From a virus, in IMG/VR virus record IMGVR_UViG_3300030107_003793, positions 1 to 20,818 of that record: a stretch of 20,818 bases of DNA; one strand, 5' to 3'. Position numbers and translations under genes: made by a program. Each line of letters starts with the position of its first letter. The stretch's first letter is position 1. Below are positions 3,385 through 19,963 of the stretch, one piece after another. The notes under the pieces are model-generated. The model made no database searches and was not told the DNA's origin. It saw nothing but the letters and a program-made list of their open reading frames with translations.

Positions 3385-3903
3385 TTATATTAATGTTCCT
3401 TGTTTTAATGCATTCTTTAAGAACGCTTGGCTTTCAGCAGATTTCTTGATATCTGTCTTAACCTTCTTATTACTTGAGGGAGTCCAATCTTTACCCAATA
3501 TTTTCTTATATTGCTCTTTAGCAACATCTAGTAAATATTGTGCTCTCTCAATGTTTATTTCCTGTGCTTTACTAGCAAAGGTTAGTTTATTAGACTGATT
3601 AATGTCAATTTCAGTTTGATTATCTTCAGCAATCAATTTCTGAATTTTCATTTTAGTCTTGTCGTGTGTTTCAATACATCTATCTAAATGATATTGAAAT
3701 GACGCAACGAATCTACTTGCGTCAGCACTTCCGTGCCAACTCCAATTCTTATCTTCATAAAATACAGATACGAATTGTTCAAAGAAGTTAGTGATTGTTT
3801 GTTCAATAACTTCTTTACTAGACTCAAATGTATCTCTCATTGACTCTAGTCTTTCGTTAGAAAAATCAAATTCTCTAACTTCTGATGCTAATGTATTTGT
3901 CAT
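3385..3903 (-). CDS. Hypothetical helical protein, 172 residues
   Basis: This 172-residue, mostly helical, soluble protein begins MTNTLASEVREFDFSNERLE. A middle aromatic stretch reads NWSWHGSADASRFVASFQYH (about residues 53-72), and the C-terminal part is Lys-rich. There is no membrane segment and no catalytic motif that I can name; the W-S-W-H-G-S box may be the conserved core. AAAGGAG lies 8 bases upstream, and the start overlaps the preceding stop as TAATG. It is the last gene of a two-gene unit that ends at the minus-strand terminator 17 bases away. Position next to the divergent region suggests early expression, which is inference. Confidence 0.75.
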   Translation of the reverse strand: MTNTLASEVREFDFSNERLESMRDTFESSKEVIEQTITNFFEQFVSVFYEDKNWSWHGSADASRFVASFQYHLDRCIETHDKTKMKIQKLIAEDNQTEIDINQSNKLTFASKAQEINIERAQYLLDVAKEQYKKILGKDWTPSSNKKVKTDIKKSAESQAFLKNALKQGTLI

Positions 3904-4097
3904 TATTTGACTCCTTTCATATTAGCTATATTATTTAATGAAAATGGCGAAACCTTGTCATATATCTGACTTATTTCAGCATTTATTTCATTCTCATTAT
4001 CTTTATTACGAATACTATCTAACTCTTGTACTCGTATCTTATCACTATCTGATAGACTAAATTCAAACCAATCTATCAAATCATTAATATTACTCAT
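3903..4097 (-). CDS. Small acidic hypothetical protein, 64 residues
   Basis: This 64-residue protein begins MSNINDLIDWFEFSLSDSDK and ends NNIANMKGVK. It is acidic and probably helical, without membrane segments or known motifs. AAAGGAG is placed 5 bases before the ATG. It is the first leftward gene beside the noncoding block 4098-4718, so its promoter must lie in or near that block, although I could not find a convincing -35/-10 pair. Its stop codon overlaps the next start (TAATG). Confidence 0.7.
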   Translation of the reverse strand: MSNINDLIDWFEFSLSDSDKIRVQELDSIRNKDNENEINAEISQIYDKVSPFSLNNIANMKGVK

Positions 4098-4130
4098 ATA
4101 ACTCCTTTCAGTTATGTTTAGTAATTACCC

Positions 4131-4363
4131 TTAACGCACGGGTTACTCGAGCAGTCATCACGAGGCAAAGCTATATTTCACTGCGAAAAGTTGTTGCACT
4201 TGGTTTAAGTGCGACCACTTTTCCTCGCTGAAGCGATAGCGTAAGGCAGGGAAATGTAGGCAAACTCGTGATACAAGCGAGGAACTCCCGTGTGTGTGGG
4301 GGCCCCATAGCAGTACTGAGTAACGCAGGGAAGTGCTAAATGCACTTCACGAGTAACGCAGGG
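4131..4363 (+). repeat. Dispersed GTAACGCAGGG-type repeats
   Basis: A 13-base unit, GAGTAACGCAGGG, occurs exactly twice, at 4318-4330 and 4351-4363, on either side of a GAAGTGC/GCACTTC hairpin. Shorter variants are GTAAGGCAGGG at 4241-4251 and TTAACGCACGGG at 4131-4142. Each copy lies beside a helix of the proposed RNA. GTTACTC at 4142-4148 is complementary to the first part of both exact copies. Confidence 0.7.
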
Positions 4364-4647
4364 GTTTCACCATTTCACCAATAGCGTACAACTACACTTA
4401 CGAAAAGCGACAGCTTTTGCGTTTGTGTATGTTGTTAGCGAATAAAGCAGCGACCCTAGGAGCTGCGTAGAGTGAAAACTGCGTATGGGGAGAGAGAGTA
4501 TCGCCTTTGGCGATTCCTTATAAGAAATTCCTAGAGTGTTGTAATGAGCTTTTAAAAGAAGCGACCGCTTGGGAGCGTTGGTCCACGACCATCTTTTAAA
4601 TGCGAATGAAAACTCCATATGTAGTAGTGTGAGTAGCGAATGCTACT
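4131..4647 (+). ncRNA. Candidate large structured RNA (or structured late leader)
   Basis: This gene-free block folds by hand into nested helices. Domain 1: 4157-4164 pairs with 4265-4272 (8 bp). Inside it, 4171-4184 pairs with 4246-4259 (13 bp, one A/G mismatch), enclosing a 16-bp hairpin at 4185-4223 with one mismatch. In addition, 4221-4229 is perfectly complementary to 4276-4284 (9 bp), a possible pseudoknot. Domain 2: 4303-4309 with 4484-4490, hairpins 4330-4348 and 4388-4435, and possibly 4365-4370 with 4472-4477. Domain 3: hairpins 4500-4514, 4551-4600 and 4632-4647. By hand count 120 of 240 bases in 4141-4380 are G or C, against 68 of 240 in 16321-16560. Two pairs (4174 with 4256, 4195 with 4213) are G-U only on the plus strand, favouring plus-strand RNA. 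Ends and promoter are not defined. Confidence 0.55.
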
Positions 4648-4718
4648 AAAGTGCCATAATAATACTTGACAAGAGGATTTTAATATTCCACTAACGATAA
4701 GAAGCAGAATAAATAATA

Positions 4719-5090
4719 ATGAGCGAATTAACAGATAAGCAGAAGGCCTTGGTTGATACCATCGTAGCAACAGGATGTAGTATCAAGGAAGCAGCAGAAA
4801 AGGCAGGATATTCAACAAAAGGTTCACCTGAAGCAGGGAGAGTAAGTGCTTCTCGCACACTACGATTACCAAAGGTACAGAGTTATATGCAATCAAGGAT
4901 AGCACAAACACTTGGACTTGGTGCAGTAAGTGCGAGTAAAAGACTTATCGAGCTGTCTTCAGGAGCTAGGTCAGAGTATGTCCAGCTCGAAGCCAGTAGA
5001 GATATACTCGATAGAGTTGGGTTAAGAGCTCCCGATAAGGTAGCTCATAACATACAAGGTGATATTAAGATTAATATCGACTTGTCTTAA
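4719..5090 (+). CDS. terS: Terminase small subunit
   Basis: The 123-residue protein begins MSELTDKQKALVDTIVATGC. It has a helix-turn-helix of the terminase small subunit type at about residues 8-50: L-T-x-K-Q-x-A-L-V, then SIKEAAEKAGYS, then ASRTLRLPKVQSYM. This matches the Terminase_2 pattern (LTxKQ at the start, AAxxAGYS, LxxPxVxxY). The subunit recognises the packaging site on phage DNA and loads the large subunit. It is the first rightward gene, 1.1 kb ahead of the large subunit with small genes between. The ribosome binding site is weak (AAGAAG, 12 bases upstream), and the stop lies just before a cluster of hairpins. Assignment rests on motif and position. Confidence 0.8.
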   Translation: MSELTDKQKALVDTIVATGCSIKEAAEKAGYSTKGSPEAGRVSASRTLRLPKVQSYMQSRIAQTLGLGAVSASKRLIELSSGARSEYVQLEASRDILDRVGLRAPDKVAHNIQGDIKINIDLS

Positions 5091-5221
5091 CAGATTAAAG
5101 TAGGTCGCTACTACAGCGACCTTCCGTTTTGGCCCCACCTTACGGGGTGGGGGCAAAATTATCCAGCGTTAGCTGACAAGGCCACTTGCTCAGACAACAG
5201 GGGTTAAAATAAGTTCGCAAT
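5091..5221 (+). other. Gap with three consecutive hairpins
   Basis: No gene is seen here. AGGTCGCT (5102-5109) pairs with AGCGACCT (5115-5122). CCCCACC (5133-5139) pairs with GGTGGGG (5146-5152). A short CAGC/GCTG hairpin with a GTTA loop lies near 5163-5174. The first is followed by TTTT only at 5127-5130, so it is at best a weak terminator after the small terminase. The second is very GC-rich for this genome. They may continue the structured RNA theme of 4131-4647 or slow 3' decay. Confidence 0.55.
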
Positions 5222-15589: not shown

Positions 15590-16185
15590 AGATTTATACT
15601 AAGATAGTTTATGATATTAATGATAATATTATAGAAGAAGAATCATTTGAATATAATGGGCCAATAGCAAAAGCTGATGGTGGTACAATGATGTTAGCAT
15701 CTTCTATATTTTCAGCAGCTAAAACATATACAGAGATACAATATGCTAAAGCTCAACACGATGCATATAAATATCAATTACATCTAGATATGGAAAAAAC
15801 AGAACTAGATGGAATGATTGAAAAAAATCAAATTGAAGAAGCTGGACAAAAACAAAAAAATAATAATTTAGCTTATGCGGTAGCACAAGGTTATTTAGAT
15901 ACATCTAGACATTTCTTAGCAGTACAAGAAGATCAAGATAGAATTACAGCTCAAGATAAAAAACTTGTGAGTTTAAACACAACATATGCTGTGGGAGTAC
16001 TTAAAAATAAAAAATATGTTGACAAACTTAAAACAGACAATGCAGTCTTTGGTGGTTACTTATCTATTGCTGCCGATGTTACTAATGGCTATGGTAAGTA
16101 CAAACATTACAAAGAAAAACCAAAAAAGAAATCAACTACAGGATCTAACTCATCTGATAGTGATTCAGGATGGAGGTACGATTAA
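15586..16185 (+). CDS. Internal virion protein (T7 gp14-like)
   Basis: This 199-residue protein begins MKIYTKIVYDINDNIIEEES with F-E-Y-N-G-P-I-A-K, a start I recall from internal virion proteins of marine podoviruses. A mostly helical, Gln/Lys-rich body follows, with GTMMLASSIFSAAKTYTEIQ near residues 33-52. The tail is Lys/Ser-rich and ends SDSGWRYD. Length equals T7 gp14 (196), which is ejected first and helps form a channel in the outer membrane. The start overlaps the nozzle gene by 4 bases (ATGA). Assignment relies on length, order and the N-terminal pattern. A tail-assembly adaptor is the alternative. Confidence 0.7.
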   Translation: MKIYTKIVYDINDNIIEEESFEYNGPIAKADGGTMMLASSIFSAAKTYTEIQYAKAQHDAYKYQLHLDMEKTELDGMIEKNQIEEAGQKQKNNNLAYAVAQGYLDTSRHFLAVQEDQDRITAQDKKLVSLNTTYAVGVLKNKKYVDKLKTDNAVFGGYLSIAADVTNGYGKYKHYKEKPKKKSTTGSNSSDSDSGWRYD

Positions 16186-16186
16186 T

Positions 16187-19100
16187 ATGGCTTTAAAGAA
16201 AACAAAATCTGTTGTTAATGTATCTTCAGCTGCTAATGCTAGAAATTTAAAAGCTGATAAAGAAATGGGTTCTAGTGCTTTAGCTTATGCAGAAAAAAGT
16301 GTTACAAATACTTTAGACTTTTTTGCTAAAGTTAAAAATGAACAATCTCAAGCTCATCATTATTCTAAATTTACAGTAGATCTTAAAAAGAAATTTGACG
16401 AAGTAGAAAATGATTATCCAATGGATGGAGATTATTTTAAACAAATTACTGACAAATGGATTAAATCTCAATTAGAAGGTATGCCAGAATTTTTACAACC
16501 AGCTGCAATGCAAGAAGCAGCAACTCATCAAGCTAGTTATGTTTCAAAAATAATGAATTTGAAATGGGTACACGATGATCAAAATACTTGGAATGATTCT
16601 GAAAGAGCTGTTGAAATTAAAATGAATAAATTAGATATGGCTATTAATGGAATTACTTCTAACCCAATGTTAGAAAATGAAGATGCAGCAGTTACATTAA
16701 CTAAAATTAATAGTTTAATTGAACAAGAAATAGGTTTGATTATTGGGCCTTATGAAAAAACTTTATTATATATGAATAAGAGAGGCTATAATAATTTTAC
16801 AGCTGCACATAATGATACAAGAATTAGAGAAATTTTAATTAATGTAGAAAAGAAAAGAGTAGCAGCTATTTATCAATTAATGCCTGATGGTGAAAAGCAA
16901 AGATATTTAAATGATTATATTAATTATCAAAATGGATATCAAAATGAAAGACTAGAAAAAATGTTTGGTGTTAATGGTAATCAATCAATGACACTTAATG
17001 TTTATGAATTAACTAAAGATAAAAATTTAAGAACTGACATAATAGAATATGCTCATACTTTAAATAAGAAATACATTGTAAATAAAAATAATGAATTATC
17101 TTATCAAGCAGAAGAAACTAATGGAACATTAAAGAAAAGTACAGCTTGGGCAGCTGGTGAAGTTACAACATTAAATAATGGTAGCAATCTTTATATGAGT
17201 ATAGAAAATGGTTTTTTTGATACTAGCAATATGGCTTCGATGCAAAAATATTTTCATAGTCATCCTTCTACAGTAGGTATGAGAAATTCAAAAACTTTTA
17301 ATGAATTTGTTAATAATGCAAAATTAGTTGAAAAATATATGATACCTATTATTCAAGGTCACGGTTTTATTTTACCTAAGGATAAAAAACAAAAAGCATT
17401 TATTTTAAAAGGGTTAGTAGATAATTTAGATATTAAAAATACAGATCCAGCTGACTTAGCTGCAACAATTAATGATGTTAGAAAACAAAATACTAAGTGG
17501 GGTAAATTATTAAATTACACTGCTAAATTTAATGAAATTCCTACTCAATTAAGTGCTAGATTTTTTGATCTTAAACACATCTCTCCTAAAAACCCAGAAG
17601 GCATAGATGAAGTTAAACTTAATATGGGTATATACAATTATATCAGAGAAATTAATCCTTCATTTGATTTTTCTCAATTAGACGGACACGAGTTTTATGA
17701 ATGGGCATATGCTAAAGGAGTTAATAGAGAAGGATCTAATAATGAAATAGCTATTGCTATAGAAAAATATTATGGCAAAGATGGAGGATTATCTTATGAA
17801 AAAAGAGAAGCTATCTTAGATTCTGAATTAAATACAGGCCCAACAATTAATTTAGAACCTGTAGTGGGTGATGCAGAAAAATCATCAATTACAAAAGACG
17901 GAGAACATAATATGTTTGATAAAGTCTTGTATAATAAATTAAATAAATGGAATACTAAAAGAGATTGGGCAAGTGAATCTTATTTACAAATAAGTGATTG
18001 GATGTTCACTATGGCAGGTAAATTATCAGACAAAGATCATATTCAAAAATATTGGGCAGATAGAGTTCAAACATTTGAAGAAGCTCCTCCCGGAATCAAA
18101 GCTATTCTTGAAAATGGATGGTTTGGAACTGAATTAAGTTGGATTCCTTTTGCAGGATGGGTAGGAGGTGCAACTCCATATGTTGGACAACCTTATATAT
18201 CAGAAGATAAAAGACAAAAAATATTTAAAGAATGGAAACATCAATATTTATTATTAAACGATGGAACTATTGATTTAAATTCTAAACAAGGTGAAGAATT
18301 ATCTGAGATTGCTATGAATAAAGCAATTGCTAAATTTGCTAATTATGAAGTTAATAATACTACATATGATGCTAACAAATGGATTCACGCAGATCATCTT
18401 GAAGTAGCAAATGAAATAGGTGATTTAAAATATAAAAATTTAGAATTATCTAAAGACTCTGATGAATATAAAAATAATTTAGCTAAAATACAGAATTTAG
18501 AAAATAGTTCTAAAAATATAAAAGTTACAGATACAACTTGGGCACCAGATATATCTAAATATTTTGATGTTAATAGCAAAACATCTAAAACTATAATGGC
18601 AGCTGATGCTGAAAAAATTATTACAGATTTATATATTAATAACAAAGAAGAATATATTCAAATCTTTGGAGATTTTGAACCTAAATATGTAATTAGAAAT
18701 AGAAAATTTACTAATGGTATTCAAGTTTCTATTAATGAAAATATGCCAGGTGAAGATGGATTACCTGCAATGAAATTATTAATTAGAGATGTAGATGGTA
18801 ATATGTATGATTTAAATGAATTAGCTGGTTCTTCTAATTATAGATTATATACAAAAAATTTTAAATTAGATAATGGTCTTCCTTTTACTTATGAAAATTT
18901 AAAAGAACATAAAGCTATAGAACAAGCAACAGCATTAACAAACAATATAAAAGAATTTGTTCCAATGTCAGATGGTGTTGAAAACTTTATTTATGAAACA
19001 TTTTTAACATTAGATAGATTTTCAACAACAGTTGGTAACTGGGAAGCAACATTACCTTCTATATCAAATTTATGGACAGATGATATTAACCATAAAACAT

Positions 19101-19963
19101 ATTCTCAATTTTCTTTTGCTAAATGGAAAAAGCAAGAAATGGAAGCATACAATGATGAAAATTTAAAATGGTGGGGCATATCTTTAAATGATAATGATTC
19201 ATTAACTATTAATGCTGTAAGTAAAGCAATGGGTTGGATTTTAAATGCTGCTGATTTAGATGGTAAAGTTTTTGAATACGAAGATGAAATTAATAAAGCT
19301 GTATTTGAAATAGCTTCTAAAGAAAAGAAATATAAAGAAATTGAGAAAAAAGGTTGGAGCAGTAAATCTGCTTTAACAGTTCCTTCAGATGTTCCTAATA
19401 CAATGTATAAAGAAAATTTATCTTTTTTAGATTGGACTTTAAATAATTATAATAAAAAAGAATTACCATTTCCATTTAGAACAAACAATTGGTTAGCTTT
19501 ATGGAAAACTAATAATAAATGGAATGGAAAAATTAATACAGCTGAATCTTCTAAACTAGAAGTATTTGAAAATCCTTCTTGGGGTATTAGAGCTGCATTA
19601 ATTAATATAGCTAATAAATCTATATTAGTTAGAGGTACAAAACCTGGGGAAAACGAAGCTGCATTAGGTAGTGAACCAACATTAAAAGAATTTATAACAA
19701 AAGGTCATATGCCTAAAGAATGGGAATCTTATTTAGCTCACTTTAAAAAAGAATTAGGTTGGGAAGAAGATCATATAATTAATTTAAAAGATGCTGAGCA
19801 AATGGCAACTATTGTTATGACAATGGCGTACCACGAAAATGGTAAAGATGCTAATGGAAATTATCTTTTAGATAAATTTATGCCTAATAAACAATTAATG
19901 TCTTTAATAATACAAGATGGTGTTAATTTGTATTTACAAGATACAAAGTGGTTAGATAAATAA
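16187..19963 (+). CDS. Large internal virion protein (T7 gp15-like) with C-terminal GIRA-type domain
   Basis: I start the gene at 16187 (protein MALKKTKSVVNVSSAANARN, 1258 residues). GGAGG lies upstream, and this is one base after the previous stop; an open extension to 15986 is only a shadow of the previous gene. The protein is mostly helical, Asn/Lys-rich and without signal peptide. Near the C-terminus (about 1127-1219), F-E-N-P-S-W-G-I-R-A-A-L followed by Y-H-E-N-G matches a domain I know from phage structural proteins linked to cell-wall cleavage. Thus the protein may both build the ejection tube and touch peptidoglycan. It is much longer than T7 gp15 (747). No transglycosylase signature is obvious elsewhere in the protein. 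Confidence 0.75.
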   Translation: MALKKTKSVVNVSSAANARNLKADKEMGSSALAYAEKSVTNTLDFFAKVKNEQSQAHHYSKFTVDLKKKFDEVENDYPMDGDYFKQITDKWIKSQLEGMPEFLQPAAMQEAATHQASYVSKIMNLKWVHDDQNTWNDSERAVEIKMNKLDMAINGITSNPMLENEDAAVTLTKINSLIEQEIGLIIGPYEKTLLYMNKRGYNNFTAAHNDTRIREILINVEKKRVAAIYQLMPDGEKQRYLNDYINYQNGYQNERLEKMFGVNGNQSMTLNVYELTKDKNLRTDIIEYAHTLNKKYIVNKNNELSYQAEETNGTLKKSTAWAAGEVTTLNNGSNLYMSIENGFFDTSNMASMQKYFHSHPSTVGMRNSKTFNEFVNNAKLVEKYMIPIIQGHGFILPKDKKQKAFILKGLVDNLDIKNTDPADLAATINDVRKQNTKWGKLLNYTAKFNEIPTQLSARFFDLKHISPKNPEGIDEVKLNMGIYNYIREINPSFDFSQLDGHEFYEWAYAKGVNREGSNNEIAIAIEKYYGKDGGLSYEKREAILDSELNTGPTINLEPVVGDAEKSSITKDGEHNMFDKVLYNKLNKWNTKRDWASESYLQISDWMFTMAGKLSDKDHIQKYWADRVQTFEEAPPGIKAILENGWFGTELSWIPFAGWVGGATPYVGQPYISEDKRQKIFKEWKHQYLLLNDGTIDLNSKQGEELSEIAMNKAIAKFANYEVNNTTYDANKWIHADHLEVANEIGDLKYKNLELSKDSDEYKNNLAKIQNLENSSKNIKVTDTTWAPDISKYFDVNSKTSKTIMAADAEKIITDLYINNKEEYIQIFGDFEPKYVIRNRKFTNGIQVSINENMPGEDGLPAMKLLIRDVDGNMYDLNELAGSSNYRLYTKNFKLDNGLPFTYENLKEHKAIEQATALTNNIKEFVPMSDGVENFIYETFLTLDRFSTTVGNWEATLPSISNLWTDDINHKTYSQFSFAKWKKQEMEAYNDENLKWWGISLNDNDSLTINAVSKAMGWILNAADLDGKVFEYEDEINKAVFEIASKEKKYKEIEKKGWSSKSALTVPSDVPNTMYKENLSFLDWTLNNYNKKELPFPFRTNNWLALWKTNNKWNGKINTAESSKLEVFENPSWGIRAALINIANKSILVRGTKPGENEAALGSEPTLKEFITKGHMPKEWESYLAHFKKELGWEEDHIINLKDAEQMATIVMTMAYHENGKDANGNYLLDKFMPNKQLMSLIIQDGVNLYLQDTKWLDK

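Follow-up and report, generated by a model that had tools for sequence, protein, structure and literature searches.

A candidate large, modular, structured noncoding RNA with mutually exclusive 5' helices beside the small terminase gene of pelagiphage-like podoviruses

The window analysed here, an IMG/VR virus fragment of 20,818 bases, apparently derives from a pelagiphage-like podovirus whose host is the marine bacterium Pelagibacter, and it carries a structured, gene-free block exactly between a leftward module and terS, the gene for the small terminase subunit. To the left of the block are small leftward genes, one of which is ParB-like, while terS on the right is followed in the rightward direction by genes for a RusA-like resolvase, TerL and a podovirus-type portal. 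A first-pass annotation had placed the block between divergent modules, and this placement is borne out, as the block adjoins both the leftward gene and terS. The ParB-like nuclease/partition protein of this podovirus leftward module is encoded at 1341-2081 on the minus strand (PHROG 12305, E 6e-30). The late module also encodes a 1325-aa protein of unknown kind (15986-19963), possibly an internal virion protein, and a near-perfect inverted repeat (AGGTCGCT-ACTAC-AGCGACCT) directly after terS, at 5102-5122, gave a terminator-like call on both strands. ARAGORN found no tRNA genes in the window. In the phage collection searched, the only cultured relative sharing terS was Pelagibacter phage EXVC031P Hodr (terS 57% and TerL 66% identical), which is the sole isolate of the phage group in that collection and has the cultured Pelagibacter strain HTCC1062 as its host. 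The features that frame the block are as follows.

3903-4097, minus strand: gene for a 64-aa product without a family match, forming the left boundary of the block.
4126-4660, plus strand (rightward reading inferred, exact ends not determined): the whole structured RNA block, based on its G+C content of 46.5%, its fold z-scores and homologues at the same place.
4666-4694, plus strand: sigma-70-like, promoter-like element between the RNA and terS, consisting of TTGACA (4666-4671), a 17-nt spacer and CACTAA (4689-4694).
4699-4712, plus strand: conserved start-site or leader element before terS, AAGAAGCAGAATAA in the window and TTAAGGGTAGAATAA in relatives.
4719-5090, plus strand: terS, terminase small subunit, opening the rightward late module (Terminase_2, PF03592, E 2e-10; PHROG 51, E 1e-12).

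The interval 4098-4718 had been described in the first-pass annotation as GC-rich, strongly structured and free of genes. The hand counts behind the first of these statements were exact (120 G+C of 240 bases in 4141-4380, 68 of 240 in 16321-16560), and the interval is indeed 43.6% G+C overall, but its limits needed refinement: the enriched core of ~530 bases spans 4126-4660, with flanks at 29.9% (left) and 31.9% (right) and a genome background of about 30-32%, and the structured block excludes the final ~60 bases (about 4660-4718), an AT-rich promoter/start region. Because terS itself is 42.5% G+C, part of the rise is regional, and composition alone is therefore not decisive. The strength of the fold was confirmed against 20 dinucleotide shuffles, the plus strand of 4098-4718 reaching -214.7 kcal/mol versus -162.3 (sd 6.9) for the shuffled sequences, a z-score of -7.6, with -4.2 for the minus strand. 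By part (200 shuffles), z was -7.0 for 4126-4300, -5.7 for 4303-4489 and -2.5 for 4490-4650; the blocks of relatives, including that of Hodr at the same place, are also structured (20 shuffles each). When relatives were compared, the absence of genes held as well, since no reading frame is kept and the conserved coding signal that would have refuted an RNA is absent. The sole sizeable ORF, of 83 aa on the minus strand at 4367-4618, was rejected as protein-coding, as its counterpart in the closest relative (L002) has no start codon and contains a stop, and it disappears in relatives beyond L002. Moreover, the lengths of homologous domains differ by non-multiples of three.

The block occupies a fixed genomic place. 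Two protein scans yielded 137 IMG/VR loci, and a GC-rich block lies just 5' of terS in nearly all of those whose terS is more than 78% identical. A DNA pattern, CGTGTGT..GGGRCCCATAGY, derived from the best-conserved stretch, matched 96 IMG/VR stretches; among 131 viral loci with the pattern, terS lies 150-600 nt downstream in 128, the remaining 3 having no terS on the available stretch. The CGTGTG hallmark is present at the place of the block in 95 of 97 distinct IMG/VR relatives (terS at least 78% identical), and the 97 distinct blocks include 84 with the sequences closing domain 2, 58 with a type I 5' domain, 59 with a 72-nt module as third domain and 88 with TTGACA. A covariance model of domain 1, scanned over 690 kb of sequence, matched at the place of the block only. 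Copies in host genomes were considered and rejected, as a search of 84,980 prokaryote genomes with the hallmark pattern gave 2 matches, from Nitrospirae and Cutibacterium, which are unrelated and were judged to be chance. Separately, phages with ~72-75% identical terS (L061:4862, L064:4862, L123:4200 and others) have another element about 122-136 nt 5' of terS, compact and highly conserved (CCAGACCGAAGCC...GGGCGAGACCTTGGCTCGA...GAGGGCTGG), possibly a distant form of the third module.

Folding and comparison with these relatives resolve the block into the following elements, all on the plus strand.

4127-4143, plus strand: P0, a local 5' hairpin, ACCC (4127-4130) with GGGU (4140-4143), which excludes P1; supported by the arm-swap test in 25 groups.
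4134-4295, plus strand: P1, closing domain 1, 4134-4142 with 4287-4295; supported by the fold, an arm-swap z of -8.5 and its CGUGUG side in 95/97 relatives.
4146-4281, plus strand: P2, CUCG (4146-4149) with CGAG (4278-4281); GGUGC/GCACC or GUGUGC/GCACAU in relatives.
4157-4272, plus strand: P3, AUCACGAG (4157-4164) with CUCGUGAU (4265-4272); 8 pairs, 100% of cells paired, one C-G/U-A compensated.
4171-4259, plus strand: P4 (4171-4178 with 4252-4259), topped by variable hairpins; both-side changes in 4 of 8 pairs.
4304-4489, plus strand: domain 2 in its long form, in which CCCAUAGCAGU (4304-4314) makes the closing helix with ACUGC-G-UAUGGG (4478-4489, G 4483 bulged); supported by covariation and a fold z of -5.7.
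4318-4361, plus strand: two copies of GAGTAACGCAG (4318-4328 and 4351-4361) with a hairpin between them; the copies form a helix with one another that contains an A.A mismatch.
4384-4439, plus strand: long domain 2 arm, whose helices covary most strongly (helices 8-11, both-side changes in 11 of 16 pairs).
4447-4466, plus strand: hairpin GCAGC-GACCCUAGGA-GCUGC (helix 12, both-side changes in 4 of 6 pairs).
4500-4514, plus strand: hairpin AUCGCC-UUU-GGCGAU, the linker between domains 2 and 3; supported by the fold and by a hairpin of variable stem that relatives have in the same position.
4548-4603, plus strand: domain 3 in the version of the window, a long stem closed by UUUUAAAAGA and UCUUUUAAA; supported by the fold.

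Domain 1 (4134-4295) is a rod in which P1, P2 and P3 lead to an internal loop, with GCAAA conserved on each side of it, and from there to P4 and the variable hairpins. In an alignment of 19 sequences, 96.6% of its cells are paired versus 27-56% when the strands are slid, changes occur on both sides in 6 of 27 pairs, and the covariation score is 0.237 versus 0.153 after shuffling. At the 5' edges of many relatives, the 5' strand of P1 invariably has a second complementary partner, a short arm upstream of it, and pairing with this arm gives P0. The arms of P0 are ACCC/GGGU in the window and elsewhere ACUCC/GGAGU, CCCAU/AUGGG, GUGC/GCAC, GACC/GGUC or UGUCC/GGACA, and each relative's version comes with a matching 3' arm for P1. 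When arms were exchanged among 25 sequence groups, own partners were clearly superior to swapped ones both for P0 (-7.47 versus -4.71 kcal/mol, z -7.6) and for P1 (-14.30 versus -10.52 kcal/mol, z -8.5), with none of 100,000 permutations as good for either helix; both were also specific in a run with 12 groups. Since the groups share ancestry and 13 of the 25 were cut by hand, these z-values are generous, although the control swaps identical cut pieces and relatedness alone has no power to create the complementarity of P0 and P1. The test of P0 also depends on cutting, giving p 0.32 with poor arm cuts and becoming significant once the arms are cut at the hairpin loop. As P1 is far stronger than P0, we infer that P0 is probably transient or one state of a switch.

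Compensatory change also marks domain 2, whose closing consensus is CCCAUAGC..GC-G-UAUGGG with a bulged G. The long form, which is that of the window, has 52 predicted pairs, 24 of them with compensatory changes; 94.6% of cells are paired versus 32-51% when slid, and cells with double changes number 82 versus 27.9 after shuffling. The pairs between the two GAGTAACGCAG repeats show no variation in 14 sequences. A short form found in relatives has compensatory changes in 7 of 20 pairs, 27 double-change cells and a score of 0.335 versus 0.124 shuffled. Its GAGYAACAGCGA hairpin loop hardly varies, and the two pairs that close this loop are variously A-U, G-C, C-G and U-A. At the place of domain 3, the 59 blocks mentioned above carry a different module of 72-77 nt (GCGACCAGGAUCGUUACCC...GUCGC), of which the window has a degenerate version only. 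The RNA is modular, since the combination of domain 2 form (long or short), 5' domain type (I or II) and third domain differs among relatives. The 72-77 nt module itself (GCGACCAGGAUCGUUACCC...CUAGAGCCUGUAAGUCGC, at L007:671-742 and 24 other loci) has many invariant unpaired bases and has the look of a self-standing small functional RNA domain. A tRNA-like reading of it was rejected, as its 3-nt loops are unfit and ARAGORN called no tRNA in the window, which holds the degenerate version only. MAFFT misaligned this module, and its automatic pair table was excluded from the evidence.

Covariation was also assessed with an R-scape-like test, written for this analysis, in which substitutions are re-dealt along the tree, a procedure with little power for 12-34 related sequences. 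The top-ranked pairs in domain 2 all fall in predicted helices (the best 5 for the long form, the best 6 for the short form), with two pairs at E<0.05 in each form. In domain 1, where power is likewise low, one pair reached E<0.05 (4148-4281) and the second best lies in P3; the former falls outside the consensus because it is a P2 pair in two groups and out of register in the window's group. Overall, the lack of covariation that would have counted against a structured RNA was not met with, as compensatory changes clearly exceed both shuffled and slid controls.

Several observations favour the plus strand as the one that is read, a reading that is supported but not proven. The consensus alignment-fold energy is lower on this strand in all 6 alignments, P1 is more stable on it in 18 of 25 groups and less stable in 4, and non-Watson-Crick cells in P1 are mostly G-U on it. 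Among pairs found on both strands, wobble counts favour the plus strand in domain 2 and are mixed in domain 1 (12 versus 21), the latter partly because columns are misaligned. The promoter-like element between the RNA and terS is likewise supported without being proven. TTGACA stands at a fixed distance (17-nt spacer) from a TACGTA-like hexamer in 87 of 98 distinct upstream regions, the -10-like hexamer being TACGTA or TACGAA in most relatives and TATACT in Hodr (TTGACA-17-TATACT). A pattern-based promoter scan of the window missed the terS promoter owing to its weak -10 hexamer. No clear promoter was found 5' of P0, which in some relatives lies only ~15 nt from the leftward start codon, and no intrinsic terminator was found at the 3' end of the block; in the absence of a convincing 5' promoter and a 3' terminator, the ends of the RNA are unknown. 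The TTAAGGGTAGAATAA element of the relatives is better conserved than an ordinary promoter start region and occurs once per genome stretch examined. A T7-type phage promoter reading of CTACGTAC..TTAAGGGTAGAATAA was rejected on two grounds: a high-scoring match occurs once per genome stretch, and a search of 12 records of the group yielded no T7-type RNA polymerase (PF00940). The rejection is weak, as is the polymerase result itself, given that the search controls gave no match.

The size of the block had suggested GOLLD or ROOL to the first-pass annotation, which named a new large RNA as one possibility, beside a structured late leader and an origin, and could match neither family by eye. No family of Rfam 15 matches the block, and the covariance models of GOLLD and ROOL were unmatched in the window, the block, 18 relatives and the blocks of three relatives (cmscan of the window and 18 relatives at gathering thresholds, and of the block and three relatives' blocks at E<=10). 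The phi29-type pRNA model was unmatched in the window, in the block at E<=10 and in 18 relatives at gathering. Group I and II introns, riboswitches, tmRNA and known ribozymes gave no gathering-level match in the window or the 18 relatives, and ARAGORN reported none in the window. The permissive matches that did appear, such as mir-290, SAM-VI and SIB_RNA, fall far below their own gathering scores and were dismissed as chance. We found no published description of this RNA, though our coverage of the literature was partial and a prior mention cannot be fully excluded.

Together, the covariation, the absence of a kept frame and the lack of an Rfam 15 match support the proposal of a new large RNA, for which there are no transcript data. 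Our favoured explanation, which we consider about evenly balanced between right and wrong, is that the block encodes a noncoding plus-strand RNA of ~400-600 nt that is large, modular and structured, acts in trans and represents a family absent from Rfam 15. The sigma-70-like element between the block and terS is what makes us lean towards an independent RNA: the RNA is likely a unit separate from terS, its independent transcription being inferred without transcript data.

The order of folding can only be inferred. As transcription proceeds, the 5' end would first form the local hairpin P0; once domain 1 is complete, the downstream CGUGUG strand would oust P0 and make the much stronger P1, so that the long rod of domain 1 would fold in transcription order. 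Domain 2, its junction closed by CCCAUAGC...GC-G-UAUGGG, would follow, and then the exchangeable third domain, while terS and the late genes would start from the separate sigma-70-like promoter 3' of the RNA. Action in trans is also an inference, and the function is untested: the finished RNA may serve, in the course of infection, as a scaffold made of RNA alone or of RNA and protein, much as has been proposed for GOLLD and ROOL, its invariant internal motifs possibly binding partners or copies of the RNA itself. More tentatively still, and with confidence that falls somewhat short of even, we propose a new class of modular phage RNA with built-in refolding, in which a 5' strand of almost free sequence remains complementary to its P0 and then its P1 partner and domains are exchanged, and which would act in trans as a late-infection machine, perhaps in packaging or host take-over, in marine pelagiphage-like podoviruses.

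In the main rival reading, the block would act in cis as the 5' leader of the late (terS) operon and would either make host RNA polymerase resistant to termination or gate late transcription, with P0 and P1 as its switch. We think this unlikely, though it remains a serious contender: every relative found has the block directly 5' of terS, with both on one strand, a conserved pair of helices that exclude each other is a typical feature of switches, and the missing T7-type polymerase, weak as that result is, points the same way. However, the TTGACA element, at fixed spacing to the conserved start element, intervenes between the RNA and terS, which therefore need not be read from upstream, and the 3' end has no terminator/antiterminator pair. 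A length of ~500 nt also far exceeds that of the put antitermination RNA of phage HK022, which measures about 70 nt and consists of two hairpins.

An origin or packaging site acting as DNA is less likely, but is not excluded. In this reading the block would be a packaging (cos/pac) or replication site with hairpins forming in its single strand; packaging sites are usually found beside terS, which the block adjoins, and P0 is a dyad near the start of the left gene. What makes this improbable is that paired changes extend across about 350 nt with elaborate junctions, that G-U is tolerated on one strand in P1 while loop motifs are invariant, and that helix sequences vary freely with pairing kept, whereas packaging and origin sites usually keep their primary sequence. 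Doubt is greater for a packaging RNA like phi29 pRNA, assembled on the portal with terminase: its constant linkage to terS and TerL would fit, but no Rfam match was obtained with a library that includes phi29-type pRNA, the phage has ordinary terS and TerL genes, and no kissing-loop pair was identified. Finally, a minus-strand leader (5' UTR) of the leftward module has very little to recommend it, for although the leftward start codon at the left edge means that the promoter of that gene must fall in or beyond the block, and the minus strand folds well too, plus-strand energies are lower in 6/6 alignments and P1 is weaker on the minus strand in most groups.

If the block does encode a trans-acting RNA, it would add another class to the few large structured phage RNAs of unknown function, such as GOLLD and ROOL, and one that almost all members of a marine phage group carry at the same genomic position. 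Its conserved, exclusive 5' helices would offer a clear test case for programmed refolding during transcription, and phages with freely exchanged domains provide natural experiments on the role of each domain. More generally, gene-free blocks beside terminase genes can hold RNAs missed by Rfam.

Among known systems, the gap of Hodr shares the interval between the leftward gene and terS (57% identical), a long-range stem and a TTGACA-17-TATACT element after it, but is only ~330 nt long, lacks CGTGTG and is not matched by the covariance model; its element is probably very diverged or analogous. In that gap (L171:11650-11976), a structured stretch of 330 nt with a very long stem, alternative arms like those of P0 and P1 can be drawn by eye only. 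HK022 put would be alike as an RNA element at the start of a phage operon, if the leader reading were right, but the new RNA runs to several hundred nt and has a promoter-like element between itself and the gene. The pRNA of phi29, which is 174 nt long, is likewise a structured phage RNA with a possible link to packaging, a link that rests on position alone for the new RNA, which has neither an Rfam match nor an identified kissing-loop pair like that of pRNA.

The nearest systems in kind are GOLLD and ROOL. ROOL is an ornate RNA of phages and prophages, several hundred nt long and of unknown function, and GOLLD is a large, elaborate phage-associated RNA, also of unknown function, that has a conserved and a variable part, occurs in marine samples too, is usually longer than 800 nt and lies near tRNA genes; both form homo-oligomeric RNA cages (PMC12286853). 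The new RNA resembles ROOL in being phage-encoded, ornate, several hundred nt long and without known function, but lies outside a tRNA island, differs in fold and motifs and has no Rfam match. With GOLLD it shares large size, elaborate structure, phage and marine setting, conserved and variable parts and unknown function, but it measures ~300-650 nt, adjoins terS, has no tRNA genes in the window and carries other conserved motifs. Given the unmatched models, the lack of a tRNA gene in the window and the differences in size and motifs, it is not a member of either family; at most, it may work as GOLLD and ROOL do while belonging to neither.
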